DNA from: a virus
Virus record (IMG/VR): IMGVR_UViG_3300011115_000308
Span: 1 to 56,450 of that record
Direction: 5' to 3' (one strand)
DNA: 56,450 nt
The notes beneath the pieces are model-generated. The model was not told the DNA's origin. It did not search any database and was given only the letters and a program-made list of their open reading frames with translations. Position 1 is the first letter of the stretch, and each line of letters begins with the position of its first letter. The translations under genes were made by a program, and so were the position numbers. Of this stretch, positions 38,929-54,066 are shown one piece after another.

Positions 38929-38953
38929 AGATGGGGGCCGAAGCCCCCGATCT
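38929..38953 (-). terminator. Intrinsic terminator between early genes and the packaging operon
   Basis: Minus strand: GGGGGC, loop TTCG, GCCCCC with extra pairs at the base, followed by ATCTATCTTTTCT. It overlaps the last base of the 109-aa gene and precedes the small terminase gene by ~60 bases. Confidence 0.75.
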
Positions 38954-39282
38954 TAGAAGTTGTAGTCGTAGAATTTGCGCGGCTCGCGGGCGACACGGTG
39001 CTTGCCGTAGGCCGACCAGAAGTAACCATCAGCGCGCTTGTAGGCTTTGATTGCGGGGTTGGTTTCGCTGGCCACGATGAACCACCGTTGGTCCTCTTGG
39101 TTGGCACAGTTGGCAGTGAAGCCGCCAGCAACGAAGTTTGGCACCCACGCCGGATCGCGTTGCACGTCCATCTCGCGGATGACGATCTGCTTGCCAGACT
39201 TGCTGACCGACAGGATTTCGAAGGGTTGGACATCAGTGTAGCCGATCAGGTTCGCGTAGCCAGTGGGTAGGGTGCAGGTCAT
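38953..39282 (-). CDS. Early hypothetical protein, 109 aa
   Basis: Start at 39282 (MTCTLPTGYANLIG) with GGAG 6 bases upstream inside the shared CCAACCAC leader. Beta-rich: VQPFEILSVSKSGKQIVIREMDVQ, DQRWFIVASETNPAIKAYKRADGYFWSAYG. Tyr/Trp-rich C-terminus (REPRKFYDYNF). It resembles small proteins encoded in phage early regions that lack known function. The leader links it to the other early genes. Confidence 0.6.
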   Translation of the reverse strand: MTCTLPTGYANLIGYTDVQPFEILSVSKSGKQIVIREMDVQRDPAWVPNFVAGGFTANCANQEDQRWFIVASETNPAIKAYKRADGYFWSAYGKHRVAREPRKFYDYNF

Positions 39283-39305
39283 TTTAATCTCCATGTGGTT
39301 GGGGG

Positions 39306-39521
39306 TCAGAAGGGGATAAAATCGTCGTTGATGTAGGCATCCTTGCGGGCTTGCTTGGCGCAGTTGCACCACTGGACCTCGACCGGACGGGTCAAGCTTT
39401 CGACCTCGGCCCGCATGGCGTACCATGCGTCTTCGGCTGCCAGTTGGGCGGGGGTCTCAATGCCAGCGACCATGCAGGCCTCTTCGTAGCTGTAGCAGGT
39501 CACGCCATAAACGTCATACAT
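39306..39521 (-). CDS. Small early protein, 71 aa
   Basis: Start at 39521 (MYDVYGVTCYSYEEA) following the CCAACCAACCACCGAAGA leader and a promoter at 39559-39587. Three cysteines (residues ~9, 16 and in QWCNCAKQARK) and a helical middle (PAQLAAEDAWYAMRAEVESL). Ends in a basic-then-acidic tail (KDAYINDDFIPF). Unknown function. Confidence 0.6.
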   Translation of the reverse strand: MYDVYGVTCYSYEEACMVAGIETPAQLAAEDAWYAMRAEVESLTRPVEVQWCNCAKQARKDAYINDDFIPF

Positions 39522-39558
39522 TTTCAGTCTTCGGTGGTTGGTTGGTTTCCGTTCTTGA

Positions 39559-39587
39559 TCAGTACATCGTACGAAACACCCCGTCAA
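39559..39587 (-). promoter_or_regulatory. Sigma70-like promoter for the 39306-39521 gene
   Basis: Minus strand TTGACG, 17-base spacer, TACTGA. The spacer ends in CGTACGATG, which also occurs in the promoters at 41341-41375 and 41683-41711. Confidence 0.6.
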
Positions 39588-39600
39588 CACCTATTTTTAA

Positions 39601-39631
39601 TAAAAAGGCCCCCACCGTTTCCGGCAGGGGC
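39601..39631 (-). terminator. Strong intrinsic terminator ending the SprT/HTH operon
   Basis: Minus strand GCCCCTGCC, six-base loop GGAAAC, GGTGGGGGC (9 pairs with two G-U), followed by CTTTTTATT. It separates the 39672-41048 operon from the promoter of the next gene. Confidence 0.75.
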
Positions 39632-39671
39632 AAGGCAGGCAGTCATCAACAGAGAGGCCTACACCATAGCA

Positions 39672-39794
39672 TCAAAAGGGCGGTTCACAATCCTTAAACC
39701 ACACGCCGCCCCAGTTGATCGGGGCACGGGGCTGGGCTACCACTTCCAACAGCCCGATCCACCGCATGAACGAGGCCAGATCGGCGGGGATCAT
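39672..39794 (-). CDS. Very small protein, 40 aa
   Basis: A 40-codon frame (MIPADLASFMRWIGLLEVV...GGVWFKDCEPPF) whose ATG overlaps the stop of the HTH gene by four bases (ATGA). It ends 41 bases before the terminator. The coupling and unusual Trp content favour a real gene, but there is no other support. Confidence 0.45.
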   Translation of the reverse strand: MIPADLASFMRWIGLLEVVAQPRAPINWGGVWFKDCEPPF

Positions 39795-40006
39795 AATTTA
39801 AACCCAAGTCTTTTTCTGAAAGCGCAGAAGCAAATTTCTCGGACCCTTTCACCGCAAATGTCAAAGTCTGCCGCGACAGATTTGTACGATTCACCACTAA
39901 GGACGCGCCTGATGATGATCCTGTCTCTTTCGGTGATGCGGGTATTTGCATCCATCGCGGTCAGGATTTCAGACTTTACCATTCTGGCCTGTGCGATACG
40001 GGTCAT
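39791..40006 (-). CDS. HTH protein (sigma-region-4/LuxR-like), 71 aa
   Basis: Start at the ATG at 40006, overlapping the preceding stop by four bases. The C-terminal half ITERDRIIIRRVLSGESYKSVAADFDICGERVREICFCAFRKRL reads as a sigma70 region 4-type helix-turn-helix: a conserved E-R-D/E-I-h-x-h-h-x-G-x-S-Y-x-x-h-A-x-x-h, then V-R-x-I recognition helix. It probably binds DNA and could regulate phage or host promoters. It lacks other sigma regions. Confidence 0.7.
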   Translation of the reverse strand: MTRIAQARMVKSEILTAMDANTRITERDRIIIRRVLSGESYKSVAADFDICGERVREICFCAFRKRLGFKL

Positions 40007-40239
40007 AGCTTCCACCCATATGATGCTGCAATTGCTTTTATCCCATAAATCAGATCACGAGCCTGATCCTCAGTGTAAATCACAATATCGCTTTCAATGA
40101 TTGTTCCATCAAGCTTTTCTGTGGTTTGATCAAGATTGATACCATGAGAACAGCGCATCAAGGTTATACAATCTTTTGCCATTTGGTCATCGTTGACGTG
40201 AGCGTGACCAACCAAAACAAGGTTACAATCTTTTTTCAT
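40003..40239 (-). CDS. Small early protein, 78 aa
   Basis: Starts MKKDCNLVLVGHAHVNDDQ and ends IKAIAASYGWKL. The strand pattern NLVLVGHAHV and ESDIVIYTEDQARDLIYGIKAIAA suggests a small alpha/beta fold. Two histidines and a cysteine near the start could bind metal. It follows the SprT-like gene by one base. Unknown function. Confidence 0.55.
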   Translation of the reverse strand: MKKDCNLVLVGHAHVNDDQMAKDCITLMRCSHGINLDQTTEKLDGTIIESDIVIYTEDQARDLIYGIKAIAASYGWKL

Positions 40240-40240
40240 C

Positions 40241-40861
40241 TCAAACCTCCCCGACCATATCGCCGCCGCAATCGCCGCAGATCAGGCGCGACCCCATCTT
40301 AGCCCACGCCTTATTGCCGCAGCCACACTCATGCTTGACCTTCGACAGGTCTTTTTTCTTGCCATCGGCCTTGCCACGGGGCTGGGTGAAGTAGGGGATG
40401 TCGAAATTTGGCCCAAGACCCTCGAAAGCCACATCAAACGGCCCGCCTTCGTCGATTATGTGCGTAACCTTGCGGCCCGTCATCTTGCCTGTGCCATCGG
40501 TCGGGGTCAGGCCTACGCGCAGCATCAGGTTGGCCCATTCCATGTTGTGGTGGCCACCCTTGGACGGCTTGCCGTACTCTTGCTGTTCGACGTGGGTCAT
40601 CTCGTGAACCAGCGTGGACAGCACGGCTTGGATGGTGCGGTCCATGCTCTGCGGGTTCAGGGCAACCTCGTGAACCGTGCCCAGATCGGCATCTTTATTT
40701 GCAAACTGGTCGGCCCAGAAATAGCCGTGGGCACCACGCTTGCGGGTCAGGGTGAACAGCACGGGCGGCAGGCGGCTGTCGAACAGGGCCTTGTTGAAGT
40801 GATCATAGGCGCGCTCAAGGCCCGTGTACGTCTCGGCGGTGGGGGTCTGATAATTGGTCAT
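40241..40861 (-). CDS. SprT-like zinc metalloprotease, 206 aa
   Basis: Contains the catalytic HExxH motif (HEMTH, residues 86-90), with a further histidine pair in GKPSKGGHHNMEW as the expected third zinc ligand. The N-terminal strand set (LERAYDHFNKALFDSRLPPVLFTLTR) is typical of SprT/Spartan domains. A C-terminal zinc ribbon is present (HECGCGNKAW...LICGDCGG). SprT-family proteins degrade proteins crosslinked to DNA or linked to replication. In phages they may help remove host or roadblock proteins during replication. It lies in the early region. Confidence 0.85.
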   Translation of the reverse strand: MTNYQTPTAETYTGLERAYDHFNKALFDSRLPPVLFTLTRKRGAHGYFWADQFANKDADLGTVHEVALNPQSMDRTIQAVLSTLVHEMTHVEQQEYGKPSKGGHHNMEWANLMLRVGLTPTDGTGKMTGRKVTHIIDEGGPFDVAFEGLGPNFDIPYFTQPRGKADGKKKDLSKVKHECGCGNKAWAKMGSRLICGDCGGDMVGEV

Positions 40862-40862
40862 C

Positions 40863-41048
40863 TTAAAGGCTCCGGTATGTGGTTGAGATTGCGGCCTCTA
40901 CGGCCTCGGCTTCAGCGCGGGTGGCGTAGGACTTGAAGGGGTAACGCTCGCCCGTAACGGCTTGGATCGCGTCACGCAACTTCTCATTTTTCAAGCTGCT
41001 GGTCAGGATTTCCAGTTCCCAGCCCGACGCGGATTGATAGACGTACAT
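40863..41048 (-). CDS. Small early protein, 61 aa
   Basis: Starts MYVYQSASGWELEILTSSLK and ends in a helix TRAEAEAVEAAISTTYRSL. It follows a CCAACCACTGGAGA leader. The WELE-LTS and SYATRAEAE pattern resembles small double-strand/helix proteins. One base precedes the SprT-like gene. Confidence 0.55.
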   Translation of the reverse strand: MYVYQSASGWELEILTSSLKNEKLRDAIQAVTGERYPFKSYATRAEAEAVEAAISTTYRSL

Positions 41049-41092
41049 GGTGTTCTCCAGTGGTTGGGTGGGGGCCTCAGCCCCCGTTCAGA

Positions 41093-41314
41093 TCAGTCGC
41101 ACAGGCTCTCGTAGCGGTACTCGGCCAAGCCCTCGGCGTACTCTTGCAGGGCCTCGTTCCAGCCGTGGTCATGCCAGTGCTTGTAAGCCTCTTCGTACTC
41201 TTCCTCAGTGGGTTCGTCGCCGTCCTTGTCCCACTCAATGTCGCCATATTCCGGCTCTGCGTAGAAGCCGTAGTCGCCGTAGGTGAAGTGGAAGCAGCGG
41301 TGTAGGTTGTTCAT
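41093..41314 (-). CDS. Very acidic small protein, 73 aa
   Basis: Strongly acidic and aromatic: GDYGFYAEPEYGDIEWDKDGDEPTEEEYEEAYKHWHDHGWNEALQEYAEGLAEYRYESL. The net charge suggests a possible DNA mimic or anti-restriction protein, but I have no family match. It has a CCAACCACGGAGA leader and follows the promoter/operator at 41341-41375. Confidence 0.55.
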   Translation of the reverse strand: MNNLHRCFHFTYGDYGFYAEPEYGDIEWDKDGDEPTEEEYEEAYKHWHDHGWNEALQEYAEGLAEYRYESLCD

Positions 41315-41340
41315 TTTCGTCTCCGTGGTTGGTGTGTCGA

Positions 41341-41375
41341 TGACCCTGTGTACATCGTACGCAACACAGGGTCAA
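41341..41375 (-). promoter_or_regulatory. Promoter overlapped by a perfect 11-bp inverted repeat
   Basis: Minus strand TTGACC, 17-base spacer, TACACA. The arms TGACCCTGTGT (41341-41351) and ACACAGGGTCA (41364-41374) are exact inverted complements around a 12-base centre containing CGTACG. They lie across the -35 to -10 span and look like an operator, or form a stem in a readthrough RNA. Confidence 0.6.
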
Positions 41376-41404
41376 CAACTATTTTGTGCTTTCGCGCACA
41401 ATCT

Positions 41405-41629
41405 TTACGCGGCGACGATGTCGCTGAAGAAGTCCAGCACCGCATCACGGTTGTCGGCGGCGGTTTCCTCGAAGCAGAGGAAGATACCATCGGTGTCGTA
41501 CTTCCCGCAGATCAAGCCTGCCTTCAGCACGATCTGGCAGCCATTGCCCTCGGACCAGAACCGCCCGATCTGTGCTGCACGGCGCTTGCCGATCCAGCGG
41601 TTGATTTGGTTTTGTGAGATGCTTTCCAT
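41405..41629 (-). CDS. Small early protein, 74 aa
   Basis: Start at 41629 (MESISQNQINRWIG) with AGGAGG 5 bases upstream in the shared leader. Alpha/beta: RWIGKRRAAQIGRFW, GNGCQIVLKAGLICGKYDTDGIFLCFEETAADN. Unknown function; preceded by the promoter at 41683-41711. Confidence 0.6.
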   Translation of the reverse strand: MESISQNQINRWIGKRRAAQIGRFWSEGNGCQIVLKAGLICGKYDTDGIFLCFEETAADNRDAVLDFFSDIVAA

Positions 41630-41682
41630 CTCGGCCTCCTGTGGTTGGCGGCCAACCCACCACGGGCTGGCCATAACCCTTC

Positions 41683-41711
41683 ATAGCACACTTCATCGTA
41701 CGGCGCAACAA
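41683..41711 (-). promoter_or_regulatory. Sigma70-like promoter (TTGTTG-N17-TGCTAT)
   Basis: Minus strand TTGTTG, 17 bases, TGCTAT. The same -35 and -10 hexamers with the same spacing occur on the plus strand before the helicase gene (52220-52248). Confidence 0.65.
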
Positions 41712-41831
41712 CTATTTTGTGGCCTTCCGAACAATTTTCTTGGCGGCCCTGCGCTGCTTGCGGTTGCCATTGGGATCGGGATCAACCTTTTCGGTTTCCA
41801 AAGTGATCATCACCCTCTTGGCTTTACGCAT
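41712..41831 (-). CDS. Very small basic protein, 39 aa
   Basis: Start at 41831 (MRKAKRVMITLETEK), with GAGGG just upstream and overlapping the preceding gene by 8 bases. Extremely basic C-terminus (GNRKQRRAAKKIVRKATK). The charge suggests nucleic-acid or ribosome contact. Could be spurious, given its size. Confidence 0.4.
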   Translation of the reverse strand: MRKAKRVMITLETEKVDPDPNGNRKQRRAAKKIVRKATK

Positions 41832-42051
41832 TGCCCTCGACCTCCAGCATCGCATCGGCCATAGCCCACGATTGGTGCGCGATGTTGTACATGTCATTGC
41901 CGCGCGCTTGGATCAGCGCCTGCATGGCCAGCCCAGCCAGCCAGAGGCGGTCAGCAGCGCGATCTGCCCCATCGGTAGGGGTTGGGCTAGGCGGTGCCAT
42001 CTTGACGCTGTAGAGGCCCTCTGGCGCGCCCGCTTCGATGTCTTTGGTCAT
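41824..42051 (-). CDS. Small early protein, paralogue A, 75 aa
   Basis: The C-terminal half RLWLAGLAMQALIQARGNDMYNIAHQSWAMADAMLEVEG matches the gene at 42260-42451 (RLWLAGTIAAGM...YVPTSCVEMADKILEAL), so the two are paralogues with a diverged N-terminus. Four-base overlap (ATGA) with the preceding gene. Helical; function unknown. Confidence 0.6.
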   Translation of the reverse strand: MTKDIEAGAPEGLYSVKMAPPSPTPTDGADRAADRLWLAGLAMQALIQARGNDMYNIAHQSWAMADAMLEVEGNA

Positions 42052-42263
42052 TTCTTGCCCTCCAAGGCTTTAATACGATTTTCGTGGTCCAACATGATCT
42101 GGTGCAGACGCCACCAGTTTTGGTGGCTGTCGCCCAGTTCCATGCCAAGCATGGCCTGAATGGCCAACTGCTCCTTGTACATTGCCTCTTGCTCGGGCGT
42201 TCTCTTGTCCGTGATGTAGACCCGCAGGGGTTCCTTGCCGAAAAGCTTCTTCAGCCAGTTCAT
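42048..42263 (-). CDS. Small early protein, 71 aa
   Basis: Start at 42263 (MNWLKKLFGKEPLR) with GGAG 8 bases upstream; a GTG at 42278 is the alternative. A short amphipathic N-terminus (NWLKKLFGK) is followed by helices (PEQEAMYKEQLAIQAML, WWRLHQIMLDHENRIKALEGKK). Possibly membrane-associated through the N-terminal helix. Lies between the two paralogues and overlaps both by four bases. Confidence 0.55.
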   Translation of the reverse strand: MNWLKKLFGKEPLRVYITDKRTPEQEAMYKEQLAIQAMLGMELGDSHQNWWRLHQIMLDHENRIKALEGKK

Positions 42264-42451
42264 TTTGTTTTCTCCCACTTGTTTCCCTTGTTGAGTGCTT
42301 CCAAAATTTTGTCCGCCATTTCCACACAGCTAGTTGGGACGTATTCCCAGTTCTCACCATCGGCGCACATCCCCGCTGCAATCGTCCCAGCCAGCCACAG
42401 GCGCTTCATGTCGCGGTCATTCTCTTTCAACACATCATCAGACCACAGCAT
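42260..42451 (-). CDS. Small early protein, paralogue B, 63 aa
   Basis: Shares the core RLWLAG...A-x-MAD-IL with the gene at 41824-42051. Starts MLWSDDVLKENDRDMK. Overlaps the preceding gene by 14 bases. Unknown function. Confidence 0.6.
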   Translation of the reverse strand: MLWSDDVLKENDRDMKRLWLAGTIAAGMCADGENWEYVPTSCVEMADKILEALNKGNKWEKTK

Positions 42452-42629
42452 TGCTCGTGATCCTTATCCGTTTGAAATCCGCCTTAAGCTCCCGCCGCAG
42501 GTCGGACATGTGTTCACCTTCATAAACGCCGCACGGCAACTCCACCGTCCAACGGTCGCTGGTCTGGTAAAAGCGCACGGGGAAACGTTGCCCCGTCGCC
42601 TCAAACAGCACCCACTGATTGTCTTTCAT
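42438..42629 (-). CDS. Small early protein, 63 aa
   Basis: Start at 42629 (MKDNQWVLFEATGQ) with AGGAGG 6 bases upstream, after a CCAACCAAGGAGG leader and the promoter at 42656-42683. The longer upstream frame runs antisense through a rightward gene and is rejected. Beta-rich (QWVLFEATGQRFPVRFYQTSDRWTVELPCGVYEGEH) with a basic C-terminus. First gene of the leftward early run. Confidence 0.6.
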   Translation of the reverse strand: MKDNQWVLFEATGQRFPVRFYQTSDRWTVELPCGVYEGEHMSDLRRELKADFKRIRITSNAVV

Positions 42630-42655
42630 CCCATCCCTCCTTGGTTGGTGGCTGC

Positions 42656-42683
42656 ACCATACCACTGGGCACGGCGGGGTCAA
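42656..42683 (-). promoter_or_regulatory. Sigma70-like promoter, leftward
   Basis: Minus strand TTGACC, 16 bases, TATGGT, 27 bases before the 42629 start and just upstream of the CCAACCAA leader. Confidence 0.6.
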
Positions 42684-42717
42684 CAAAAAAAATGTTTGGA
42701 TCGACACAAGTTTTCTG

Positions 42718-42746
42718 TTGCATCGTACTTTCAAACCGATTAAACA
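42718..42746 (+). promoter_or_regulatory. Sigma70-like promoter, rightward (divergent)
   Basis: Plus strand TTGCAT, 17 bases, TAAACA, upstream of the CCAACCAACCACAGGAGA leader of the 42783 gene. It is divergent to the promoter at 42656-42683. Confidence 0.5.
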
Positions 42747-42782
42747 TAACTCACTGACCCCAACCAACCACAGGAGACTACC

Positions 42783-43061
42783 ATGTCCATCAACTTCGCC
42801 ATCGCACTCGCCGACCGCTTCGCCGCCGCTAAGGCTGCCCACGAGGCCGCCACCGAGGCCCTCGACGCCCTCAAGGCCGAGATCAAGGCCGCTGGGATCG
42901 AACGCCACATCGGCCTGACCTGCGACATCGTCCTTGCGCTGTCCGAACAGCGCCGCATCGACACCAAACTTCTGCAAGCTCTTCTGACCGACGAGCAGAT
43001 CGAGGCCTGCAAGAAGCCAGTGCTGGTCGAAACCATCCGCGTCCGCGCTAAAGGTCTTTAA
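42783..43061 (+). CDS. Small early protein, 92 aa
   Basis: Helical, Ala/Glu/Lys-rich N-terminus (FAAAKAAHEAATEALDALKAEIKAA), then RHIGLTCDIVLALSEQRRIDTKLLQALLTDEQIEACKKPVLVETIRV. The second half resembles small phage proteins that adopt a short DNA- or protein-binding fold, but I cannot name one. The leader contains AGGAG 9 bases before ATG. Convergent with the HNH gene 2 bases downstream. Confidence 0.6.
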   Translation: MSINFAIALADRFAAAKAAHEAATEALDALKAEIKAAGIERHIGLTCDIVLALSEQRRIDTKLLQALLTDEQIEACKKPVLVETIRVRAKGL

Positions 43062-43063
43062 TC

Positions 43064-43564
43064 TCAAGATCGTTTTAGGAAGCCGTGTTTTTTCTCGGCT
43101 TCCTTTCTTGCTTCCGTTGCCAGTTCTGCTGTCAAGAAATAACCCAAGTAAATTTTCTTTCCGTTGATGCAAATGCGTGCGGTCCACTGATTGCGATCCT
43201 TGGAGAATGTCACCCCTGGATACCCTGATGTGTTGTCACGCCTGATTTTTGCGTTTTGTGAGTTCTGGAAGAAATCCGCCTCCCGCAGGTTCAAAATTCG
43301 GTTGTCGCTTCTATCACCATTGATATGGTCTATTTGATTCATCGGCCACTCTCCGTGAAACATTGCCCAAATCACGCGGTGCGCTTGATATCTTTTGTCA
43401 TGGATTGCTCCGCACATGTATCCATCTGAGATGGCAGTAAACGCTTTTCGTCCTGCGTACCTGACGTTCCATCTTAGTCCGACATCGCTCCGAACTTTCC
43501 ATGTTAGGCGTCCCGTGTCAGGGTCGTATGTTAGAAGGTTGTAAAGTTCGGATGCGTTGACCAT
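43064..43564 (-). CDS. HNH homing endonuclease with AP2-like C-terminus, 166 aa
   Basis: Same architecture as 10077-10562: LTYDPDTGRLTWK, a Y-x-AHRVIWAMFHGEWP lead-in, HNH core QIDHINGDRSDNRILNLREADFFQNSQN, then NTSGYPGVTFSKDRNQWTARICINGKKIYLGYFLTAELA (AP2-like). The residue spacing of the His and Asn pairs is intact, so activity is likely. It occupies a gap beside the AT-rich control region and is oriented against the preceding gene, as expected for a mobile endonuclease gene. Confidence 0.9.
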   Translation of the reverse strand: MVNASELYNLLTYDPDTGRLTWKVRSDVGLRWNVRYAGRKAFTAISDGYMCGAIHDKRYQAHRVIWAMFHGEWPMNQIDHINGDRSDNRILNLREADFFQNSQNAKIRRDNTSGYPGVTFSKDRNQWTARICINGKKIYLGYFLTAELATEARKEAEKKHGFLKRS

Positions 43565-43645
43565 GGTGTCTGTCTCCTAGGTTTGCCTTCATACGATAGT
43601 ATCATATTCATTGAAACTATCAAGAAGGCCTCTAAAACCACCAAA

Positions 43646-43679
43646 AGCCCCAGAGTGTCGTCTCTGGGGGCTTTTTTTT
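43646..43679 (+). terminator. Strong intrinsic terminator (mainly rightward)
   Basis: AGCCCCAGAG and CTCTGGGGGCT around a six-base TGTCGT loop, followed by eight T on the plus strand. On the minus strand the hairpin is followed by CTTTTGG, so weaker leftward termination is possible. It isolates the AT-rich region from the HNH gene. Confidence 0.8.
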
Positions 43680-43740
43680 GCGCTGTTACTCGCGCTACTC
43701 ATCACATTGATTTCATTGTCAAAAAAGTAGAGTAGAAGTA

Positions 43741-43948
43741 GAAAGTAGCGTCCCCTTTATATAATAAATAATTTCTTTAAAAATCCCTCCCCCCTGAGAC
43801 ACCTTTTTTCCCCCCTTAAGCAACTATTTTTATTACTCTATAGAAAAACACTCTTAAGAAGGACTCTACTATACTACTATATACTATATATAATATATAT
43901 ATATATCAGTATCTTATGAATTAAATTTAATAGGAAAGTAGCGTCCCC
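43741..43948. other. AT-rich region bounded by an exact 15-bp direct repeat (origin/control candidate)
   Basis: GAAAGTAGCGTCCCC occurs at 43741-43755 and again at 43934-43948. Between them are ~180 bases of almost pure A/T, including long TATA runs (ATATACTATATATAATAT-type). The only other features are short homopolymers (CCCTCCCCCC, TTTTTTCCCCCC). There is no gene from 43565 to ~43965. Easily melted DNA flanked by identical repeats, next to prim-pol and helicase genes, fits a replication origin or a major promoter region. Function inferred. Confidence 0.5.
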
Positions 43949-44061
43949 AAACCCCCCAAAAGTACTTGCACCGTGGGACGGTACTACCGCAGGCCTTTAC
44001 AGGTCGACGCCAATCTTTTACCAGTGGTACATCTGACAACCCTTATGGAGCAAATGATCCA

Positions 44062-44445
44062 ATGATTGAGCTAGTCCACATCCCTAAAGTCCCCATGGGC
44101 GACCGTGCCCGTGGTGCTAATCATGGTCGTCCCGCGCGTGTTGACTTTGCTTTGCGTAATTATGGCACGATCTGCTTGCTGGCCCTGCCACGCCACATTC
44201 TGCAAGATGGTGACGGCGCGGAGTTCTTCGGGTCTTCGGATGGTTTCGCTATCCAGCTCTCGCCCAATGGTACACGGAAGCTCTCGAACAAGAAGAATAC
44301 GTTCGCGGCCACGCTGCCCCTGCAAATCCGCACCTACATCTCAGCCGTGGTAAAGGGGTCGATCACCGTGCCGCACACCGAAATGCCCGACCGGACGTAC
44401 TTCTTTGCCTACGCCGACATTGAGGCCGCCGCCGAAAACAAATAA
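44062..44445 (+). CDS. Rightward protein beside the AT-rich region, 127 aa
   Basis: Start uncertain: the ATG at 44062 (MIELVHIPKVPMGD) has GGAG 11 bases upstream, while the frame stays open to ~43966 and another ATG lies at 44095. Sequence includes RARGANHGRPARVDFALRNYGTICLLALPRHIL, DGFAIQLSPNGTRKLSNKKNTFAATLPLQIRTYISAVVKG and ends PDRTYFFAYADIEAAAENK. Strand-rich and moderately basic; I cannot assign a family. Expression would start in the AT-rich region, so it may be an early gene. Confidence 0.55.
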   Translation: MIELVHIPKVPMGDRARGANHGRPARVDFALRNYGTICLLALPRHILQDGDGAEFFGSSDGFAIQLSPNGTRKLSNKKNTFAATLPLQIRTYISAVVKGSITVPHTEMPDRTYFFAYADIEAAAENK

Positions 44446-44468
44446 AAAAGGGGGCCGAAATGGCCCCC
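44443..44468 (-). terminator. Intrinsic terminator after the 44492-44881 gene
   Basis: Minus strand GGGGGCC, five-base loop, GGCCCCC followed by TTTTTTATTTG. It also closes the convergent rightward gene at 44445, though without a U-tract in that direction. Confidence 0.75.
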
Positions 44469-44491
44469 CCCCTACACCTGCGTGGCGCGTG

Positions 44492-44881
44492 TCACTGCTT
44501 GGTGATGATGTTGCTGGACAGGTTTTCCATCATGGCGGTCAGCGGGTTCAGGAACGCAACCTCAATGCCGATGTCCTTGCCGTGGTCGATCAGCTTGCCG
44601 ACCGCAGCAATAAACGCATCGCGCTTGGCATCGTCAATGGACTTGAGGTCTTCCACATGCCGCTCTGCATCGGCAAACAGGGCTTCAATGCCCGCATCGC
44701 AAGACCCGTGGAAAAACTTGTCTACCTGTGCGCTGTGCGTGTCGGTGCGATAAAACAAGTTGACCGTCAGGTCGTAGCCAATCCAGTTGACGTAGACGAC
44801 GATCTTGGGGTTGTAATAACCTTTTGCGGCGCAGAGTTCTGCGATGCGGTTGGCTTCGGCTTTGATCTGTGTAGCGTTCAT
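44492..44881 (-). CDS. Early hypothetical protein, 129 aa
   Basis: Helical with a central strand pair: NATQIKAEANRIAELCAAKGYYNPKIVVYVNWIGYDLTVNLFYRTD, then AGIEALFADAERHVEDLKSIDDAKRDAFIAAVGKLID. Preceded by the CCAACCACTGGAGA leader and the promoter at 44918-44946, and followed by a strong terminator, so it is a single-gene transcript. Function unknown. Confidence 0.6.
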   Translation of the reverse strand: MNATQIKAEANRIAELCAAKGYYNPKIVVYVNWIGYDLTVNLFYRTDTHSAQVDKFFHGSCDAGIEALFADAERHVEDLKSIDDAKRDAFIAAVGKLIDHGKDIGIEVAFLNPLTAMMENLSSNIITKQ

Positions 44882-44917
44882 GGCAATCTCCAGTGGTTGG
44901 GTTGGGGTAGTGACATA

Positions 44918-44946
44918 TCTTTATGTCAGGTTTTTGGGTAATGCAA
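44918..44946 (-). promoter_or_regulatory. Sigma70-like promoter with inverted repeat on the -10
   Basis: Minus strand TTGCAT, 17 bases, TAAAGA. GACATA-TCTT-TATGTC (44912-44927) is a perfect 6-bp inverted repeat covering the -10, a possible operator. Confidence 0.55.
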
Positions 44947-45126
44947 CATAATTTTTCCGATTTCTTTTGTGTCACTATACATTATGTCGGCGTCCCGAAT
45001 GGCACGGCACGTCTTGATCACATGCTCCCCCGTCAGGCCAAACTTCCGCGCCACATAGGACGGGGGTTTGACCTTTCGCAGTGCCAAAATGTCTAGCAAT
45101 TGCTCATCTTTTTGCCTTGCGTTCAT
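44926..45126 (-). CDS. Small HTH-like protein, 66 aa
   Basis: Start at 45126 (MNARQKDEQLLDIL), overlapping the membrane-protein stop by four bases; the longer upstream frame is antisense-type noise. PPSYVARKFGLTGEHVIKTCRAIRDADI reads as a helix-turn-helix of the MarR/AsnC-like size: first helix SYVARKFG, then LTGEHVIKTCRAIRDADI. Followed by a short tail (SDTKEIGKIMLHYPKT). A DNA-binding role is inferred. Confidence 0.55.
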   Translation of the reverse strand: MNARQKDEQLLDILALRKVKPPSYVARKFGLTGEHVIKTCRAIRDADIMYSDTKEIGKIMLHYPKT

Positions 45127-45293
45127 AGCTGGTACGCCCCCAGCAACACCACCACGGCTGCCGCGATGCCCAATGGCACCGCCAGCCACGTCATGCCAGG
45201 CGGCAACGACGCAATGGCGGTGATGGTAATGGCAAAGAACGCCGCGTAGCCCACGATGACAACGGCGGCGATGGCGAGAAGTTGTGCGATCAT
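45123..45293 (-). CDS. Small membrane protein with two TM segments, 56 aa
   Basis: Frame MIAQLLAIAAVVIVGYAAFF...LPPGMTWLAVPLGIAAAVVVLLGAYQL. Two hydrophobic helices separated by PPGM. Start overlaps the previous stop by one base (TAATG), and its end overlaps the next start by four (ATGA), so it is very likely translated. Could be a holin-like or host-membrane-acting peptide; it lies one gene away from the hydrolase cluster. Confidence 0.6.
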   Translation of the reverse strand: MIAQLLAIAAVVIVGYAAFFAITITAIASLPPGMTWLAVPLGIAAAVVVLLGAYQL

Positions 45294-45586
45294 TATTGTA
45301 TCTCCCTAATCCGAAAGAACCCATCGCGTTCTGGGTATTGCTCCATGTACCATCGTGCATAGTAAGCCCGATGGTTGTTGTTTATTTTGAAATCCCCATG
45401 AGCGCCCTGCGTCACCACATCAGTTTCCCAACGGATGCGTTCAAATATTGCATTTACCGAATAGTTTTTGAAACCTCTGTTCAAAACCTCCCCAGTGAAC
45501 CGCAAGAACAGATGCCAGACAATTGGATTGTCAGCATGAAAAGACAGCGCGGCATTTTCAAGTTTGTTTCTTCCAATCCTTCTCAT
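45293..45586 (-). CDS. Conserved phage/plasmid early protein, 97 aa
   Basis: The sequence NAALSFHADNPIVWHLFLRFTGEVLNRGFKNYSVNAIFERIRWET...FKINNNHRAYYARWYMEQYPERDGFFRIREI is a widely distributed pattern (F-HxxNPxVWxLFxxFT, YSxxxIFERIRWE, FKINNNHxxYYAR). It is found in phages and prophages of many proteobacteria. Function is not known to me. Highly conserved aromatic and basic positions suggest a binding surface. Four-base overlap with the preceding gene. Confidence 0.7.
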   Translation of the reverse strand: MRRIGRNKLENAALSFHADNPIVWHLFLRFTGEVLNRGFKNYSVNAIFERIRWETDVVTQGAHGDFKINNNHRAYYARWYMEQYPERDGFFRIREIQ

Positions 45587-45885: not shown

Positions 45886-46268
45886 TCATCACACTCCTTG
45901 TAAAAAACATGGTTGCCGTACATCCCCACCATCACCATGTCGTCCGCCCAGTAGGGCAGCACATCGCGGGTGTGGTAGTAGGTCGCGCCGCTGCACAGTT
46001 CGCACCCGTACAGCAAGGTTTCGTTGGCAATGATCTGCGCGGTAAGCCACGCATCTATATCCTTGGGCTTGTCGCTCTTGCCATCGTGCGTCCAGCTAAA
46101 CGCGCCCTTTTCCCAGACAACGCCGCAGACGGTCTTGGGAAACCCATCCGTATATACGCGCTCCATCGTGACCTCGGCGATTAGCTTCTGGCCGTCATAG
46201 CTTTCGCTGCGCCCCTCAAAGTACACGTTCATGGCCAAGCAGGTGGCCGCCGCTACGGTGACGATCAT
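45882..46268 (-). CDS. SleB-type cell wall hydrolase, 128 aa
   Basis: CLAMNVYFEGRSESYDGQKLIAEVTMERV (candidate catalytic Glu18) and TVCGVVWEKGAFSWTHDG match the Hydrolase_2/SleB murein hydrolase pattern. The middle helix YLT-type and CELCSGATYYHTRDVLPYW follow. The N-terminus MIVTVAAATC is too short for a clear signal peptide. SleB-type enzymes cut the muramic acid-glucosamine bond in peptidoglycan. A second lytic enzyme in the early region, away from the amidase, is notable. It may act in host cell-wall remodelling. Confidence 0.75.
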   Translation of the reverse strand: MIVTVAAATCLAMNVYFEGRSESYDGQKLIAEVTMERVYTDGFPKTVCGVVWEKGAFSWTHDGKSDKPKDIDAWLTAQIIANETLLYGCELCSGATYYHTRDVLPYWADDMVMVGMYGNHVFYKECDE

Positions 46269-46456
46269 TCTTCATCCTCCTCTTCCCACGAGGCGGCTTC
46301 GTCAAAACAATCTTCCAGCGTTTCGTGAACGTTTGAACAAATAAGAGACATTGCTTCCAACAACCAAGTGCCGCGCGGACCCTCAGTTATTTCATAAATA
46401 CGGTCATTCTTACCCACAGCTACATAGCTGCCGTCTGTTCTCATCTTGAATTGCAT
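46265..46456 (-). CDS. Small early protein, 63 aa
   Basis: Start at 46456 (MQFKMRTDGSYVAVGKND) with GGAG 7 bases upstream in a variant of the shared leader. Beta-rich (SYVAVGKNDRIYEITEGPRGTWLLEA) with an acidic C-terminus (DEAASWEEEDEE). Overlaps the SleB gene start by four bases. Unknown function. Confidence 0.55.
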   Translation of the reverse strand: MQFKMRTDGSYVAVGKNDRIYEITEGPRGTWLLEAMSLICSNVHETLEDCFDEAASWEEEDEE

Positions 46457-46482
46457 TTTCAATCTCCATGGTTGTGGTTAGT

Positions 46483-46517
46483 TTTCAAGTCTTGCGACAA
46501 TTCAAGCGTTGCGTCAA
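46483..46517. repeat. Two 17-bp near-identical direct repeats upstream of an early operon
   Basis: TTCAAGTCTTGCGACAA (46483-46499) and TTCAAGCGTTGCGTCAA (46501-46517) match at 14 of 17 positions, one base apart, and overlap the end of the primase gene. They could bind a regulator of the leftward operon that starts at 46456. Confidence 0.5.
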
Positions 46518-48817: not shown

Positions 48818-48820
48818 ATA

Positions 48821-49051
48821 TCAGGCCGTCTCGCCAAAGAGGTATTTCTCCAGCTTTTCAATGGTCGCCAATGAAAAACTTTGGCTACCTTCACGCGCGA
48901 TGCTCCTGATTGTGTTGGGGTGCAGGCCTGTCTCTTCCGCGACCAAAACGAGTGGATTTTTCGGTACATTTTTTGCGCGTTCGTTCAGGGCCGTCCGAAT
49001 ACGGCCAACCTGATCCGCGATAGCTTCTTTGATTTTTGTTGTTTCCGACAT
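48821..49051 (-). CDS. HTH repressor-like protein, 76 aa
   Basis: Start at 49051 (MSETTKIKEAIADQ) with AAGGGAC upstream. LVLVAEETGLHPNTIRSIAREGSQSFSLATIEKLEKYLFGE is an XRE-type helix-turn-helix: A-E-x-T-G-L-x-x-N-T-I-R recognition, then a stabilising helix. Transcribed divergently from the recombination operon through overlapping promoters that contain the TGACATTGTCA palindrome, so autoregulation and control of the rightward operon are likely. It lies 3 bases from the prim-pol gene. Confidence 0.75.
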   Translation of the reverse strand: MSETTKIKEAIADQVGRIRTALNERAKNVPKNPLVLVAEETGLHPNTIRSIAREGSQSFSLATIEKLEKYLFGETA

Positions 49052-49085
49052 TTTTTGCTTGTCCCTTTCAGTGACACGTTGCCTG

Positions 49086-49117
49086 TTGACATTGTCACAA
49101 GCGACATCTAAGGTCAA
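49086..49117. promoter_or_regulatory. Overlapping divergent promoters with palindrome operator
   Basis: Plus strand TTGACA (49086-49091), 17 bases, TAAGGT (49109-49114) drives the recombination operon. On the minus strand TTGACC (49112-49117) and CAATGT (49089-49094), 17 bases apart, point to the repressor gene. The palindrome TGACATTGTCA (49087-49097) overlaps both. Confidence 0.7.
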
Positions 49118-49144
49118 TGGCGTTGATGAAGGAGTAACAGCAAC

Positions 49145-49903
49145 ATGTCTATACTAGACCAAATCACGAAACCCGCGTTACGGCCACTGGCCGTGACCAT
49201 CATCGGGGAGGCGGGACTGGGGAAAACTTCCCTTGGCGCGACCTTTCCGAAGCCGATCTTCATTCGGGCCGAGGATGGCCTCAAGTCAATCACCAACAAC
49301 CCCATGCCCGATGCGTTTCCGGTCCTCAAGAGCGTTGAAGACCTTTGGCCGCAATTGTGGGCGTTGGCCAAAGAAGAACACCAGTACGAGACGCTGGTGG
49401 TGGACACCGTGTCCACGCTTGACACCATGTTCACCGACTGGGTTGTTGAAAGCGACCCGAACAAGCCCAAGTCCATCAACCAAGCCCTTGGGGGCTGGGG
49501 CGCTGGCACCAACATGGTTTCCAGCCAGCATCGCCGCCTCCGCAAGGGTTGCGAGTACCTGCTGGATCGCGGAATGAACATAGTGTTCCTGTCCCACGCT
49601 GACACCACCACCGTGTCGCCGCCCGATGGCAACCAGTACACCCGCTACACCATGCGGATGCACGAGAAATCCATGCAACCCTACATCGACAACGTCGATC
49701 TGGTGGGTTTCCTGCGCTTGGAGATGTTCACCAAGGGCGACGGGGACGTGAAGAAGGCTATCTCCACTGGCGAACGACAGTTGGTGTGCCACGCAATGGC
49801 CGCAAACGTCAGCAAGAACCGTTTCGGCATCAATGAACCCATCGAAGTTATGTCGGGGCTGAACCCGCTGGCTGCGTATCTGATCAAGGGAGAGAAAAAA
49901 TGA
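49145..49903 (+). CDS. RecA-like P-loop ATPase (Sak4/AAA_24 type), 252 aa
   Basis: Walker A GEAGLGKTS (21-29) and Walker B YETLVVDTVS (Asp87) sit in a short RecA-fold protein. The RAEDGLKSI turn and the segment NIVFLSHADTTTVSPPDGNQYTRYTMRM are typical of phage AAA_24/Sak4 annealing-related ATPases. Paired with the SSB-like protein encoded immediately after it (ATGA overlap), the likely role is single-strand annealing or recombination during replication. AAGGAG lies 10 bases before the ATG. Confidence 0.8.
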   Translation: MSILDQITKPALRPLAVTIIGEAGLGKTSLGATFPKPIFIRAEDGLKSITNNPMPDAFPVLKSVEDLWPQLWALAKEEHQYETLVVDTVSTLDTMFTDWVVESDPNKPKSINQALGGWGAGTNMVSSQHRRLRKGCEYLLDRGMNIVFLSHADTTTVSPPDGNQYTRYTMRMHEKSMQPYIDNVDLVGFLRLEMFTKGDGDVKKAISTGERQLVCHAMAANVSKNRFGINEPIEVMSGLNPLAAYLIKGEKK

Positions 49904-50529
49904 GCAATTTTTGGGGTTTATCTGAGGGTGGCAGCGCCGCCGATAACGCAAGCGGCGAGTTTGATGCGGGTGGCGGCAATATGCAGCCCATTCCGTCCGA
50001 CACCAACGTGTTGGCGGCCATTGACGAGGCCAAGTGGGCCAAGAACCAGAAAGGCGACGAGTTCATCTCGCTGCGCTGGTCTGTGATGCAGCCGGAAGAG
50101 TTTGAGAACCGCAAGATTTTCCAGAAGCTTTGGGTCACTGACTTTGATCCTTCGGTATTTGGTTCTAAGGGCGAAGACAAAGCCATTGCCAAGCGTGACA
50201 AGGCCAAAAAGATGCTGGCTGCCATTGACACCAACGCTGGGGGCAAGTTGCTGGCCAAACCCGTTATGCCGACCGACGAAAGCATGACGCTTCACCTCAC
50301 CAACAAGCCGATGATCGTCAAGGTCATGGTGTGGGAAATGACCGACCGCATGACGGGGGATGTAGCCCGTGGCAACTGGGTCGGCGCTGTGTCGTCTAAG
50401 GCTGCGGCAAAAGTGTCGTCGCCGGAAGAGATCGCCAAGTCTAAGTCCGAAATGGCAAACCACCAGAGCAAGGCCGCTGGTGCCGCTGCCCGTGGTGGCC
50501 GCGACCTTGACGACGAAATCCCCTTTTAA
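49900..50529 (+). CDS. Single-stranded DNA-binding protein-like, 209 aa
   Basis: The N-terminus is Gly/Ala/Asp-rich (MSNFWGLSEGGSAADNAS), the middle forms OB-type strands (GDEFISLRWSVMQP, LHLTNKPMIVKVMVWE), and the C-terminus is the acidic hydrophobic tail DLDDEIPF typical of SSBs that recruit partners. It is encoded with the Sak4-like ATPase and probably protects replication intermediates. Similar proteins are described as DUF669/SSB-like in other phages. Confidence 0.7.
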   Translation: MSNFWGLSEGGSAADNASGEFDAGGGNMQPIPSDTNVLAAIDEAKWAKNQKGDEFISLRWSVMQPEEFENRKIFQKLWVTDFDPSVFGSKGEDKAIAKRDKAKKMLAAIDTNAGGKLLAKPVMPTDESMTLHLTNKPMIVKVMVWEMTDRMTGDVARGNWVGAVSSKAAAKVSSPEEIAKSKSEMANHQSKAAGAAARGGRDLDDEIPF

Positions 50530-50537
50530 ATTTAACT

Positions 50538-50559
50538 GGGAGGGGCTTCGGTCCCTCCC
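50538..50559 (+). other. Hairpin after the SSB-like gene
   Basis: GGGAGGG, loop GCTTCGGT, CCCTCCC, without a U-tract; likely an RNA processing or stability element between the SSB-like gene and the next gene. Confidence 0.45.
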
Positions 50560-50590
50560 TACCACCCCCAACCAGAGTGAGACATACGCA

Positions 50591-50848
50591 ATGACAAGTC
50601 GGGCCGAATGGCGGGAAACCGCAATTGAAGAATTAATTAAACTTTTTGATCATTTTGAATGGGTTGATAGCACTATGCTTAAAAAAAGAATGAAAGAAAT
50701 TGGGTTTAATCCTCCAGAAGAATTTAAAGATTGGGGTTTTCCATTTCGTGCCGCCAAAAAAGCAGGAAAGATTAAAAAATTAGGATACCATATGTCAACA
50801 GAAAAACAATGTAATGGCAGGCCGATTACAAAATGGGAAAAAGCATGA
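50591..50848 (+). CDS. Small AT-rich early protein, 85 aa
   Basis: Start at 50591 (MTSRAEWRETAIEELIK) after a CCCCAACCAGAG leader variant. Helical, with IEELIKLFDHFEWVDSTMLKKRMKEIGFNPPEEFKDWGFPFRAAKKAGKIKKLGYHMS, possibly a winged-helix-like DNA-binding fold. Its codons are clearly more AT-rich (AAA, ATT, GAA, AAT) than in neighbouring genes, suggesting separate acquisition. Overlaps the exonuclease start by four bases. Confidence 0.6.
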   Translation: MTSRAEWRETAIEELIKLFDHFEWVDSTMLKKRMKEIGFNPPEEFKDWGFPFRAAKKAGKIKKLGYHMSTEKQCNGRPITKWEKA

Positions 50849-51714
50849 TGGAACAAAGATCACCAGAGTGGTTTACCGCTCGTAAAGGCCGCATCACCGG
50901 ATCAATGGTGGGCGCTGCCCTCGGCCTAGACCCCAATACCAGCCGCGATGAGGCGATGCGCCGCATGGTGCGCGCTTATCAGGGGCTGCCGTCAGAGTTT
51001 GTTGGCAACATCGCCACATCGTGGGGCACCAACCACGAAACGGAAGCCCGCGAGGCTTTTGAGTACCAATTTAAACCCGTAGCACCTGCCACCTTCGTGG
51101 TACATCCCACGCTGCCGTGGCTGGGGGCTAGCCCTGACGGGTACGTTGCCAACCATGCCCTGCTTGAGATCAAATGCCCCTTTGGCCTGCGCGACAAGCC
51201 CAAGCCCGTGCCGTTCAAGAGCATCAACATCCAGCCGCATTACTACGCCCAAATGCAAATCCAGATGTACTGCACCGACAAGATCGCCTGCTATTTTTGG
51301 CAGTGGACGCCGAACGATCACAAACTGGAGATCGTGGACTATGACCCGATCTGGATCGAAGTGAACCTGCCCAAACTTGAGGCGTTCTACAACGAGTTCT
51401 TGGCGATCCGCGACGAGGGTATGCCGGAGCCGGAAGAAAAGCTTGAGATCGACACCATAGGCCACCGCTACATGATTGCAGAGTACGATGTACTCACCAA
51501 GCAGATCAAAGAGGCTGAAGACCGCAAGAAGGAAATCTTGGATGCGCTGGTGTTTGAAAGCGCCGGACAAGATGCCGTGATCTGCGGGCGCAAGCTTACG
51601 CTGGTGCATCGGGCGGGCAGCGTGTCCTACGCCAAGGCCATCAAAGAGCTTGCCCCCGATGCCGATTTGGAAAAATGGCGCGGTGAACCTTCAACATACT
51701 GGACCCTGAAATGA
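50845..51714 (+). CDS. YqaJ-type recombination exonuclease, 290 aa
   Basis: The start overlaps the previous stop (ATGA). SPEWFTARKGRITGSMVGAALGLDP is the YqaJ/lambda-exonuclease N-terminal core, ATSWGTNHETEAREAFEY the next helix, and LGASPDGYV...LLEIKCPFG carries the catalytic Asp/Glu/Lys of a PD-(D/E)XK nuclease. A QxxxQMQIQMYC helix follows. It processes DNA ends for recombination together with the SSB-like and Sak4-like proteins. The last ~130 residues are helical, as usual. Confidence 0.85.
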   Translation: MMEQRSPEWFTARKGRITGSMVGAALGLDPNTSRDEAMRRMVRAYQGLPSEFVGNIATSWGTNHETEAREAFEYQFKPVAPATFVVHPTLPWLGASPDGYVANHALLEIKCPFGLRDKPKPVPFKSINIQPHYYAQMQIQMYCTDKIACYFWQWTPNDHKLEIVDYDPIWIEVNLPKLEAFYNEFLAIRDEGMPEPEEKLEIDTIGHRYMIAEYDVLTKQIKEAEDRKKEILDALVFESAGQDAVICGRKLTLVHRAGSVSYAKAIKELAPDADLEKWRGEPSTYWTLK

Positions 51715-51905
51715 CCGACCAGCTTCAACGCCAGATCAACATCAACACGCAATTGCGGCGGCAGCTTGAAACTGCCCGCCGCGATGCGGTCGAATACTGC
51801 GCTAAATATTGCGAAGATCACGGGTTTATGGTGATGGAAAAAGATGTAGGCAAATGGTATGCCGGAAAACTTAGAGAGATTGTTGGGAATGCGCGTAAAG
51901 ATTAA
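51711..51905 (+). CDS. Small protein, 64 aa
   Basis: Helical and Cys-containing (INTQLRRQLETARRDAVEYCAKYCEDHGFMVMEKDVGKWYAGKLREIV). The start overlaps the exonuclease stop by four bases (ATGA). Unknown function. Confidence 0.55.
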   Translation: MTDQLQRQININTQLRRQLETARRDAVEYCAKYCEDHGFMVMEKDVGKWYAGKLREIVGNARKD

Positions 51906-52206
51906 AGGCGTCATCTACGAAACCGTGGAAGAAGCAGCCAAAGATTTTAACATCAAGCCAAGGCAAATTCAAAGGGCGTTGAACGAGGGCAGGGAAGACC
52001 GCTTGCGGCCAAAGAGGCAGGGCAGCAAGCAAGGCACCCCACAGCCGTTTACCATTGAAGGCGTGACATTCCCAAACCAGAAGGCGGCCAACGACGCGCT
52101 GGGCTTTGGCTACAATTATGTCACGCAGGCAATAAATTGTAACAGCGCGGTTTCATTGGCCAAGATCGCCAAGGCTGCCCGACGATACAGGGAAACTTGT
52201 AGCTAA
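51889..52206 (+). CDS. Double-HTH/NUMOD1-like protein, 105 aa
   Basis: Start at 51889 (MRVKIKGVIYETVEEAAKD), overlapping the previous gene by 17 bases. Two repeats of one pattern: VIYETVEEAAKDFNIKPRQIQRALNEG and VTFPNQKAANDALGFGYNYVTQAIN, separated by a basic linker. This I-x-G-V-x-Y/F...A-A...I-x-x-A-L/I layout resembles NUMOD1 DNA-binding repeats found in homing enzymes, but here without a nuclease domain. It may be a DNA-binding regulator or a relic. Confidence 0.65.
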   Translation: MRVKIKGVIYETVEEAAKDFNIKPRQIQRALNEGREDRLRPKRQGSKQGTPQPFTIEGVTFPNQKAANDALGFGYNYVTQAINCNSAVSLAKIAKAARRYRETCS

Positions 52207-52219
52207 CGATACAAATTGA

Positions 52220-52248
52220 TTGTTGCGAGGTGATGTAAAGACTGCTAT
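52220..52248 (+). promoter_or_regulatory. Sigma70-like promoter for the helicase gene
   Basis: TTGTTG, 17 bases, TGCTAT, followed by the CCAACCAACCACGAGG leader. Same hexamers and spacing as the leftward promoter at 41683-41711. Confidence 0.65.
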
Positions 52249-52281
52249 TCTTCTGTCACCAACCAACCACGAGGTTTTACG

Positions 52282-54066
52282 ATGACATTGCGCCCCTACC
52301 AGCAAGAAGCCCATGACGAGATCATAAAGTGGATTAAGAGAAACACTGCCCCATGCTGCATTGAGGCGGCCACGGGCGCGGGCAAGTCCCACATCATTGC
52401 GGCACTGGCAGATACCATCCACGGCATCTCGAAAGGCAAGCACATCCTGTGCCTCGCCCCCAGCGCCGAACTGGTCAACCAGAATGCTGAAAAGTTCCGC
52501 CTGACGGGCGGCAAGTGTTCCATCTTCTCGGCAAGCGCCGGAGAGAAAAGCCTGCGCCACCCCGTGGTGTTCGGGACGCCTGGCACCGTGATCAATTCCA
52601 TCAAGCGGTTCGGCAAAGAGTTCGCGGCGGTGGTGATTGACGAATGCCACGGCCTGACCGCCACGGTCAAAGAGATCGTGGAAGAGATCAGGAAAGTGAA
52701 CCCCATGCTGCGCGTCATGGGGATGTCGGCCACGCCGTACCGCATGAACACGGGCTACATCTTCAAGCACTGGGCTGACGGCAAGCCTGTCCGCGAAGAC
52801 CAGACCAAAGACCCCTATTTCGACACCTGCGTCTACCGCATTCAAGCCTACGAACTGATCGAACAGGGTTTCCTGACCAAGCCCACCATCGGCAAGGCTG
52901 GGGCTGTCGGATACCACACCCTCAACATGGAACTGAACAGCCGTGGCCAGTTTGACGCTGCCGACATCGACCGCGCGTTCCACGGGCAGGGCCGCAAGAC
53001 CGCCGCCATCATGGCCGACATCGTTGATCAGGCCGCCTACCTGCGTGGCGTGATGGTGTTTGCGGCCACGGTCAAACACGCCAAAGAGTGCATGGCATCC
53101 CTGCCACCCGAACTGTCGGCGCTGATCACCGCAGACACGCCTAAGCCGGAGCGCCAGAAGATCATCGCGGACTTCAAGGCCAAGAAGATCAAGTATCTGG
53201 TCAACGTGTCCGTTCTGACCACTGGGTTCGATGCGCCCCACGTTGACATGATCGCCATCCTGCGCCCAACCGAAAGCGTGGGCCTGCTTCAGCAGATCAT
53301 CGGTCGCGGCTTGCGCGTGGACGAGGGCAAGGACACCTGCGTGATCCTCGACTATGCCGAGAACCTGCCCCGCCACTGCCCCGAAGGGGATATTTTCAAC
53401 CCCAAGGTCAAGGCCAAAAAAGGTAACCTAGAGGTAGATTTTGTTACCTGCGAATGCGAGTTCTGCGGCGTTGAGAACGAGTTTTTGGGCCGCCCCAACA
53501 AGGAAGGGTATCCCATCGACCACAATGGGTATTTCTTGGACCTCGACAACAACCGCATTGAAACCAAGTGGGGTGCGATGCCCGCGCACTTCGGTCGCCG
53601 TTGCCGCGCATCCGACACAGTGGCTGGTGAGCGTATCCAGTGCGGCTATCGCTGGACATCCAAGCCGTGCCCCCACTGCAAGGCCGACAACGACATCGCG
53701 GCGCGGTATTGTGAGAAATGCAAGGGCGAGATCGTCAACCCCAACGACAAGCTCAAGCTTGCGTTCAAGGCCATGAAGAAAGACCCCACGCAGCGCCAGA
53801 CTGACAACGTGGTCCTGTTCGACGTGAAGAACGCCCTGTCCCGCAGCGGCAACGCGACATTGAAGGTTGACGTGGTTACCGAATACAGGTCATTCTCTTA
53901 CTGGATCATGCGCCACCCCAAGCACCCCGCGTCCGTTCGGGAAACAAACCAGTTTGGCGCGCTTGATGGTGTAAAGCCCAAGACGATTACTTATAAATTA
54001 AACCCCCAGACGAGCTTCTACACTGTTCTGGGCTACAATGGACCCGCCGATGCACCTCCCGAATGA
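52282..54066 (+). CDS. SF2 DNA helicase with zinc-finger C-terminus, 594 aa
   Basis: Q-motif-like LRPYQQEAHDEIIKW, Walker A ATGAGKS (30-36), DECH (120-123), motif III SAT (149-151), and motif VI QIIGRGLR (338-345), with the VLTTGFDAPHVDMIA segment between. The C-terminal third carries three Cys clusters (CECEFC ~390-395, CGYRWTSKPCPHC ~454-466, CEKC ~477-480) that likely bind zinc. Such UvsW/SSL2-like helicases process branched replication intermediates. It has its own promoter and leader. Confidence 0.85.
   Translation: MTLRPYQQEAHDEIIKWIKRNTAPCCIEAATGAGKSHIIAALADTIHGISKGKHILCLAPSAELVNQNAEKFRLTGGKCSIFSASAGEKSLRHPVVFGTPGTVINSIKRFGKEFAAVVIDECHGLTATVKEIVEEIRKVNPMLRVMGMSATPYRMNTGYIFKHWADGKPVREDQTKDPYFDTCVYRIQAYELIEQGFLTKPTIGKAGAVGYHTLNMELNSRGQFDAADIDRAFHGQGRKTAAIMADIVDQAAYLRGVMVFAATVKHAKECMASLPPELSALITADTPKPERQKIIADFKAKKIKYLVNVSVLTTGFDAPHVDMIAILRPTESVGLLQQIIGRGLRVDEGKDTCVILDYAENLPRHCPEGDIFNPKVKAKKGNLEVDFVTCECEFCGVENEFLGRPNKEGYPIDHNGYFLDLDNNRIETKWGAMPAHFGRRCRASDTVAGERIQCGYRWTSKPCPHCKADNDIAARYCEKCKGEIVNPNDKLKLAFKAMKKDPTQRQTDNVVLFDVKNALSRSGNATLKVDVVTEYRSFSYWIMRHPKHPASVRETNQFGALDGVKPKTITYKLNPQTSFYTVLGYNGPADAPPE

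Follow-up and report, generated by a model that had tools for sequence, protein, structure and literature searches.

The stretch of DNA analysed here (the window) is a 56.45-kb virus record from IMG/VR, belonging to a group of aquatic phages. The closest relative with an annotation is MW202675 ('Myoviridae sp. ct7L0027', Manatee Spring); the large terminases of the two are 73% identical and the major capsid proteins 90% identical. The recognisable genes of the window are those for the terminase small subunit (Sf6 type), portal, major capsid, a DEAD/ResIII helicase, a Prim-Pol primase, an AAA_24 ATPase, SSB, a YqaJ recombinase and SprT. The hosts of distant terminase relatives are Paracoccus, Roseobacter and Rhizobium for some, and gammaproteobacteria for others. 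Gene starts were predicted with a purpose-written caller based on codon usage and Shine-Dalgarno (SD) sites, one start (39521) being placed by hand. Genes are called early when they precede the terminase and fall within the replication region, as judged from gene content, and uncoupled when the gap is at least 20 nt.

The leader and its position at gene starts

The original prediction listed eleven early genes on both strands, each preceded by nearly the same sequence ending in the SD site. We extracted and read their upstream regions, and recovered a CCAACC-type leader ending in an SD site at every one of these plus- and minus-strand starts, in weak form at 46456 and 50591 (Table 1). In nine of the eleven regions, CCAACC leads into CAC or a close variant of it, and then an SD-like site stands approximately 6-8 nt before the ATG. 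A GGTTGG upstream of the 41629 leader could pair with the CCAACC of that leader. An operator-like palindrome, TGACATAAAGATATGTCA, lies directly upstream of the 44881 leader (44907-44930, minus strand). Ten leader genes were scanned against protein families, with nothing beyond weak or unknown matches.

Table 1. Leaders and early promoters in the window, with the genes that follow them and the state of orthologous upstream regions
Feature	Position	Strand	Gene	Remarks
Leader + SD CCCCCAACCACATGGAGATTAAA	39283..39305	-	38953-39282	Directly after upstream stop codon; kept in 5/5 orthologue upstreams
Leader + weak SD (GAAG)	39522..39546	-	39306-39521	Below GTACGATG promoter; kept in 5/5 orthologues
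Early promoter TTGACG, GTACGATG in spacer, TACTGA	39559..39587	-		Above 39521 leader; hexamers by eye
Degenerate leader-like stretch, doubtful	40862..40887	-	40241-40861 (SprT), coupled	Within upstream gene; absent from the original list
Leader + SD	41049..41071	-	40863-41048	Directly after GGGGGC..GCCCCC hairpin; kept in 4/4 orthologues
Leader + SD	41315..41335	-	41093-41314	Kept in 2/2 orthologues
Early promoter TTGACC, GTACGATG in spacer, TACACA	41347..41375	-		Above 41314 leader; hexamers by eye
Leader + SD	41630..41649	-	41405-41629	Kept in 2/2 orthologues
Leader + SD	42630..42650	-	42438-42629	3/8 orthologues by strict regex, two more with variant CCAGCC
Leader + SD	42758..42782	+	42783-43061	Full consensus matched exactly; kept in 8/8 orthologues
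Leader + SD	44882..44907	-	44492-44881	Kept in 8/8 orthologues
Weak leader AACCACAACC-ATGGAG	46457..46479	-	46265-46456	Upstream reads AACCACAACCATGGAG
Weak leader CCCCCAACCAG-AGTGAG	50565..50590	+	50591-50848	Upstream reads CCCCCAACCAGAGTGAG, without GGAG
Leader + GAGG	52257..52281	+	52282-54066 (DEAD/ResIII helicase)	Without leader in the single orthologue upstream compared (L159)

The heptamer CCAACCA ranks first in start association among the 15,354 distinct 7-mers of the window: of its 31 copies, 13 precede a start by 9-36 nt, against 0.45 expected (p=1.9e-16). The core CCAACCAC occurs 11 times on the two strands, and 8 copies fall at the same distance upstream of a gene start where 0.16 would be expected (p=3e-13). 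The strict pattern CCAACCAACCACNGGAG, allowing up to three mismatches, has 8 matches in the window, two of which are not leaders, compared with 0.88 in shuffles. Far from being equally frequent away from starts, CCAACCA and CCAACCAC concentrate at them, in line with the original prediction.

The same region holds further elements. A small-RNA-like element at 39594-39692 (minus strand) comprises a -10-like TATGGTG, a conserved CTCTCTGC and the terminator GCCCCTGCCGGAAACGGTGGGGGC with a U run; it stands beside terminase-proximal early genes in approximately 15 clade A contigs (defined below) and has no Rfam match. The AT-rich noncoding stretch 43566-44060, partly conserved in clade A, carries repeated GGGGACGCTACTTTC and is possibly a replication origin.

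Distribution among genes and related phages

We refer to contigs with terminases at least 83% identical as clade A, and to those with terminases at most 81% identical as clades B-D. Among the clade A relatives, which are partial and related contigs with duplicates dropped only when the upstream sequence was identical, the leader precedes 49 of 90 uncoupled early genes, compared with 2 of 70 coupled early genes (p=1e-13) and none of 20 uncoupled late genes (p=2e-6). The same regex applied to the window gives 10/20, 1/14 and 0/13, respectively. The leader is thus limited to the early region, as had been proposed, and the genes behind it are indeed unrelated, representing 28 uncoupled protein families in clade A. 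About half of the uncoupled early genes are without a leader by the strict regex, some of them probably being false start calls. Five contigs with an uncoupled SprT gene have the leader before it, and three with a coupled one do not; the exceptions are two uncoupled copies without it (L024 and L026) and the coupled copy of the window, with its degenerate stretch. The major capsid gene of the window has an ordinary AAGGAG-type site and no leader; as this gene is presumably among the most translated, that would be unexpected of an element that simply strengthens translation. The HNH endonuclease gene at 43064-43564 (minus strand) likewise has no leader, as would fit a recent mobile insertion.

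The distance between GGAG and ATG is 6 nt at 64 of 83 sites; the distance between the core and GGAG varies, mainly within 2-5 nt. Orthologues retain the core whether it is preceded by a promoter, by a GGGGGCTTCGGCCCCC hairpin or by a stop codon. A promoter-like box is found shortly above 28 of 85 clade A leaders (about a third). The persistence of the core after hairpins and stop codons, together with a spacing that follows the SD site and the ATG, ties the leader to translation starts and not to promoters, and agrees with its original description as a feature of starts.

The leader is common to relatives with terminase identity of at least 83% and is not shared by those at 81% or below; leader genes make up 21% in clade A vs approximately 2% in clades B-D. 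Clades A-C have in common a family of early promoters, AAAATAGTTGTTGAC-N-CATCGTACGATG-TA, and GTACGATG is present in 86 copies in clade A and 79 in clade B, against 9 and 8 expected. In clade A the leader lies between the early promoter and the SD site, whereas in clade B the same promoter can lead straight into GGAGG. Other recurrent upstream sequences, picked by eye from lists, are a hairpin and GCTCAACACTGGAGA in clade B, GTGTTTTTATTGA..GGAGATGACC in clade C and CATCAACAACGGAGCA in clade D. This points to replacement of the leader in sister clades by other sequences beneath the same promoter family (that of clades A-C). The palindrome CATCGTACGATG in the spacer between the -35 and -10 boxes is operator-like; it is imperfect in the window (39572, 41360, 41701 and 42728, all on the minus strand) and is also seen in relatives.

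Contigs with little or no homology to the window, fetched by pattern, also carry many leaders: L144 is the strongest, with nine genes, and L099 and L115 are other examples. The p-values of such loci are inflated, since they were chosen for one site. L144 encodes a CobT relative of Roseobacter phage CRP-810. A BLAST search with the leader against cultured phages gave scattered matches, and none of the four phages checked (three matches and CRP-810) has a clade-like CCAACC enrichment. Global abundance was rejected as evidence: a reversed-core control recovered 61 viral contigs vs 82 for the true core, and three or more CCAACC-type leaders were also present in 10 of 59 control contigs. What sets the true core apart is its clustering within genomes: it has 2-3 exact matches in several contigs, the control in none. 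A first permuted-core control was uninformative because the permutations overlap the leader. A host chromosomal leader was likewise discarded: the 103 matches in bacterial contigs are scattered and single, and four alphaproteobacterial genomes from these have one match each. In an unrelated phage of Microcystis, Mae-Yong1326-1 (L333), we observed a different C/A-rich start-associated sequence, ACCACC, which precedes starts in 7 of its 45 copies (p=6e-7).

Possible modes of action

We see about an even chance that early genes use the leader as a cis-acting module for translation initiation, recognised by its sequence and read by the host 30S subunit or by a host RNA-binding helper. Support from the sequences comes from the position of the leader, its confinement to early genes, its independence of promoters, its retention in orthologues, its conservation beyond composition and its restriction to a clade. 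Such a module would consist of a loose A/C-only tract, the CCAACCAC core, 2-5 nt, and GGAG usually 6 nt from the ATG. It would offer independently starting genes an open, recognisable landing site for the 30S subunit or a helper, e.g. an S1-type protein. Belonging to the translation start, it would tend to appear when a gene becomes uncoupled and to vanish when it becomes coupled. The leader would thereby raise or gate translation, with a host factor as the putative reader. Pairing with the 3' end of 16S rRNA beyond the SD was considered and rejected on the order of the elements, as a pairing partner for GGUUGG would have to be downstream of the SD.

The leader regions are predicted to be more open than other starts (unpaired fraction at leader/start of 0.65/0.58 in leader genes vs 0.46/0.48 in other uncoupled genes), and both clade D and the Microcystis phage have other A/C-rich start-associated sequences. 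Both observations would fit an unstructured A/C-rich spacer, uniform through descent and drift and not through recognition. We nevertheless find this decidedly improbable. Of the early uncoupled starts, 35 reach an A/C content of 75% or more, and 34 of these contain CCAACC, compared with 4.0 in shuffles, so A/C composition alone is not enough; other CA-rich repeats are rare, CACACA occurring once and AACAAC and ACAACA never, with ACCACA in 19. The core also persists in orthologues with diverged flanks. Shuffling the leader barely alters the predicted accessibility of the SD site (0.574 vs 0.564, a change of approximately 0.01), and openness alone therefore does not explain the conservation. 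Pure tuning for ribosome loading, one of the options raised originally, is not borne out by these composition-matched shuffles, which lose the motif at nearly the same SD accessibility. Very remote, in our judgement, is a role as a DNA element, whether within the promoter or the initially transcribed region or as a short stretch of homology through which early cassettes recombine. The promoter-like boxes above a third of clade A leaders and the differences in early gene content between relatives speak for it. However, the leader stays with its gene even where a hairpin or, immediately upstream, a stop codon precedes it, clades A-C have a common promoter family but not a common leader, the spacing is tied to the SD site and ATG, and the leader is rare on coupled genes.

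The main alternative is that the leader is an RNA operator: CCAACCAC would be bound by a phage or host protein, or by a small RNA, that switches the early genes together at the level of translation, in the manner of T4 RegA or GcvB; we regard this as possible, if unlikely. Confinement to early genes and absence from the capsid gene would suit such a switch, as would a sequence constraint exceeding composition and the clade-wide turnover of leaders under conserved promoters. Precedents exist in CA-rich small-RNA targets upstream of the SD (PMC3879156) and in RegA, which acts on approximately 30 T4 mRNAs (PMC3014915). Against it, the clade A contigs, which are partial, contain no recurrent noncoding GGUUGG that could serve as an anti-leader RNA, no Rfam family was matched, and no phage protein family was found to be common to clade A and all unrelated leader-bearing loci. 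The varying gap between core and SD also implies that the core and GGAG need not be one rigid site. The specific regulator originally suggested is therefore not supported so far. A further reading, quite unlikely in our view, is that a trans-acting factor, the host's or carried by unrelated phages, reads CCAACCAC in the mRNA and times early translation; clades would then plug different leaders into the same promoters and so join different translational regulons.

Comparison with known systems

A literature search on CCAACCAAC in phage gave no description of the leader among the matches listed. T4 RegA represses approximately 30 T4 mRNAs through A+U-rich, poorly conserved sites that overlap or adjoin the AUG, and RegB cuts GGAG (PMC3014915). 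The leader resembles this system in occupying the translation-initiation regions of many early genes, but differs from RegA operators in being C/A-rich and not A+U-rich; no RegA or RegB homologue was found among the scanned proteins, which are part of those of the window. Translation is enhanced by ACA- or CA-rich elements that precede the SD at no strict distance, and the GcvB targets include yifK, dppA and gltI (PMC3879156); these elements are a precedent in which activity was tested. The leader is likewise rich in C and A and precedes the SD at a variable distance. Its core CCAACCAC, however, is of CCAACC type and without ACA (ACCACA is present in the 19 of 35 A/C-rich leaders noted above), and unlike in the GcvB regulon, no GU-rich antisense RNA was found in the clade A contigs or through Rfam.

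Coordination of early genes in phages usually takes place at the promoter; in clade A, a short module, apparently acting at the RNA level, is found at about half of the early genes that start independently. Swapped in sister clades under the same promoters and recurring in unrelated phages, it provides a natural comparison for what the sequence upstream of the SD contributes to translation initiation. The closest parallel is with the Start-Associated Sequences (SAS) of Cluster K mycobacteriophages, which have a 13-bp consensus, GGGATAGGAGCCC, built around the SD and located 3-7 bp from the start; a role in translation initiation was proposed and is unproven, and about half of the sites have paired 17-bp inverted repeats, termed ESAS (PMC3203893). 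The question of SAS function was raised in 2011 (PMC3203893), and the experimental test was still awaited according to a 2025 Cluster K paper. Unlike SAS, the leader has an A/C-only CCAACCAC upstream of the SD and also recurs in unrelated phages; none of the eleven leaders fits the 13-bp consensus. On reading the leaders, no ESAS-like paired 17-bp repeat stands out; the promoters contain a 12-bp palindrome of another kind. Both are short asymmetric repeats just upstream of starts, in one orientation relative to the gene and in front of different gene families; both are clade-restricted, have an SD-type site at the start and belong to non-structural genes, the leader being absent from all late genes counted above. 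By this analogy, the leader is like SAS in the kind of work it would do, and not a member of SAS by sequence.
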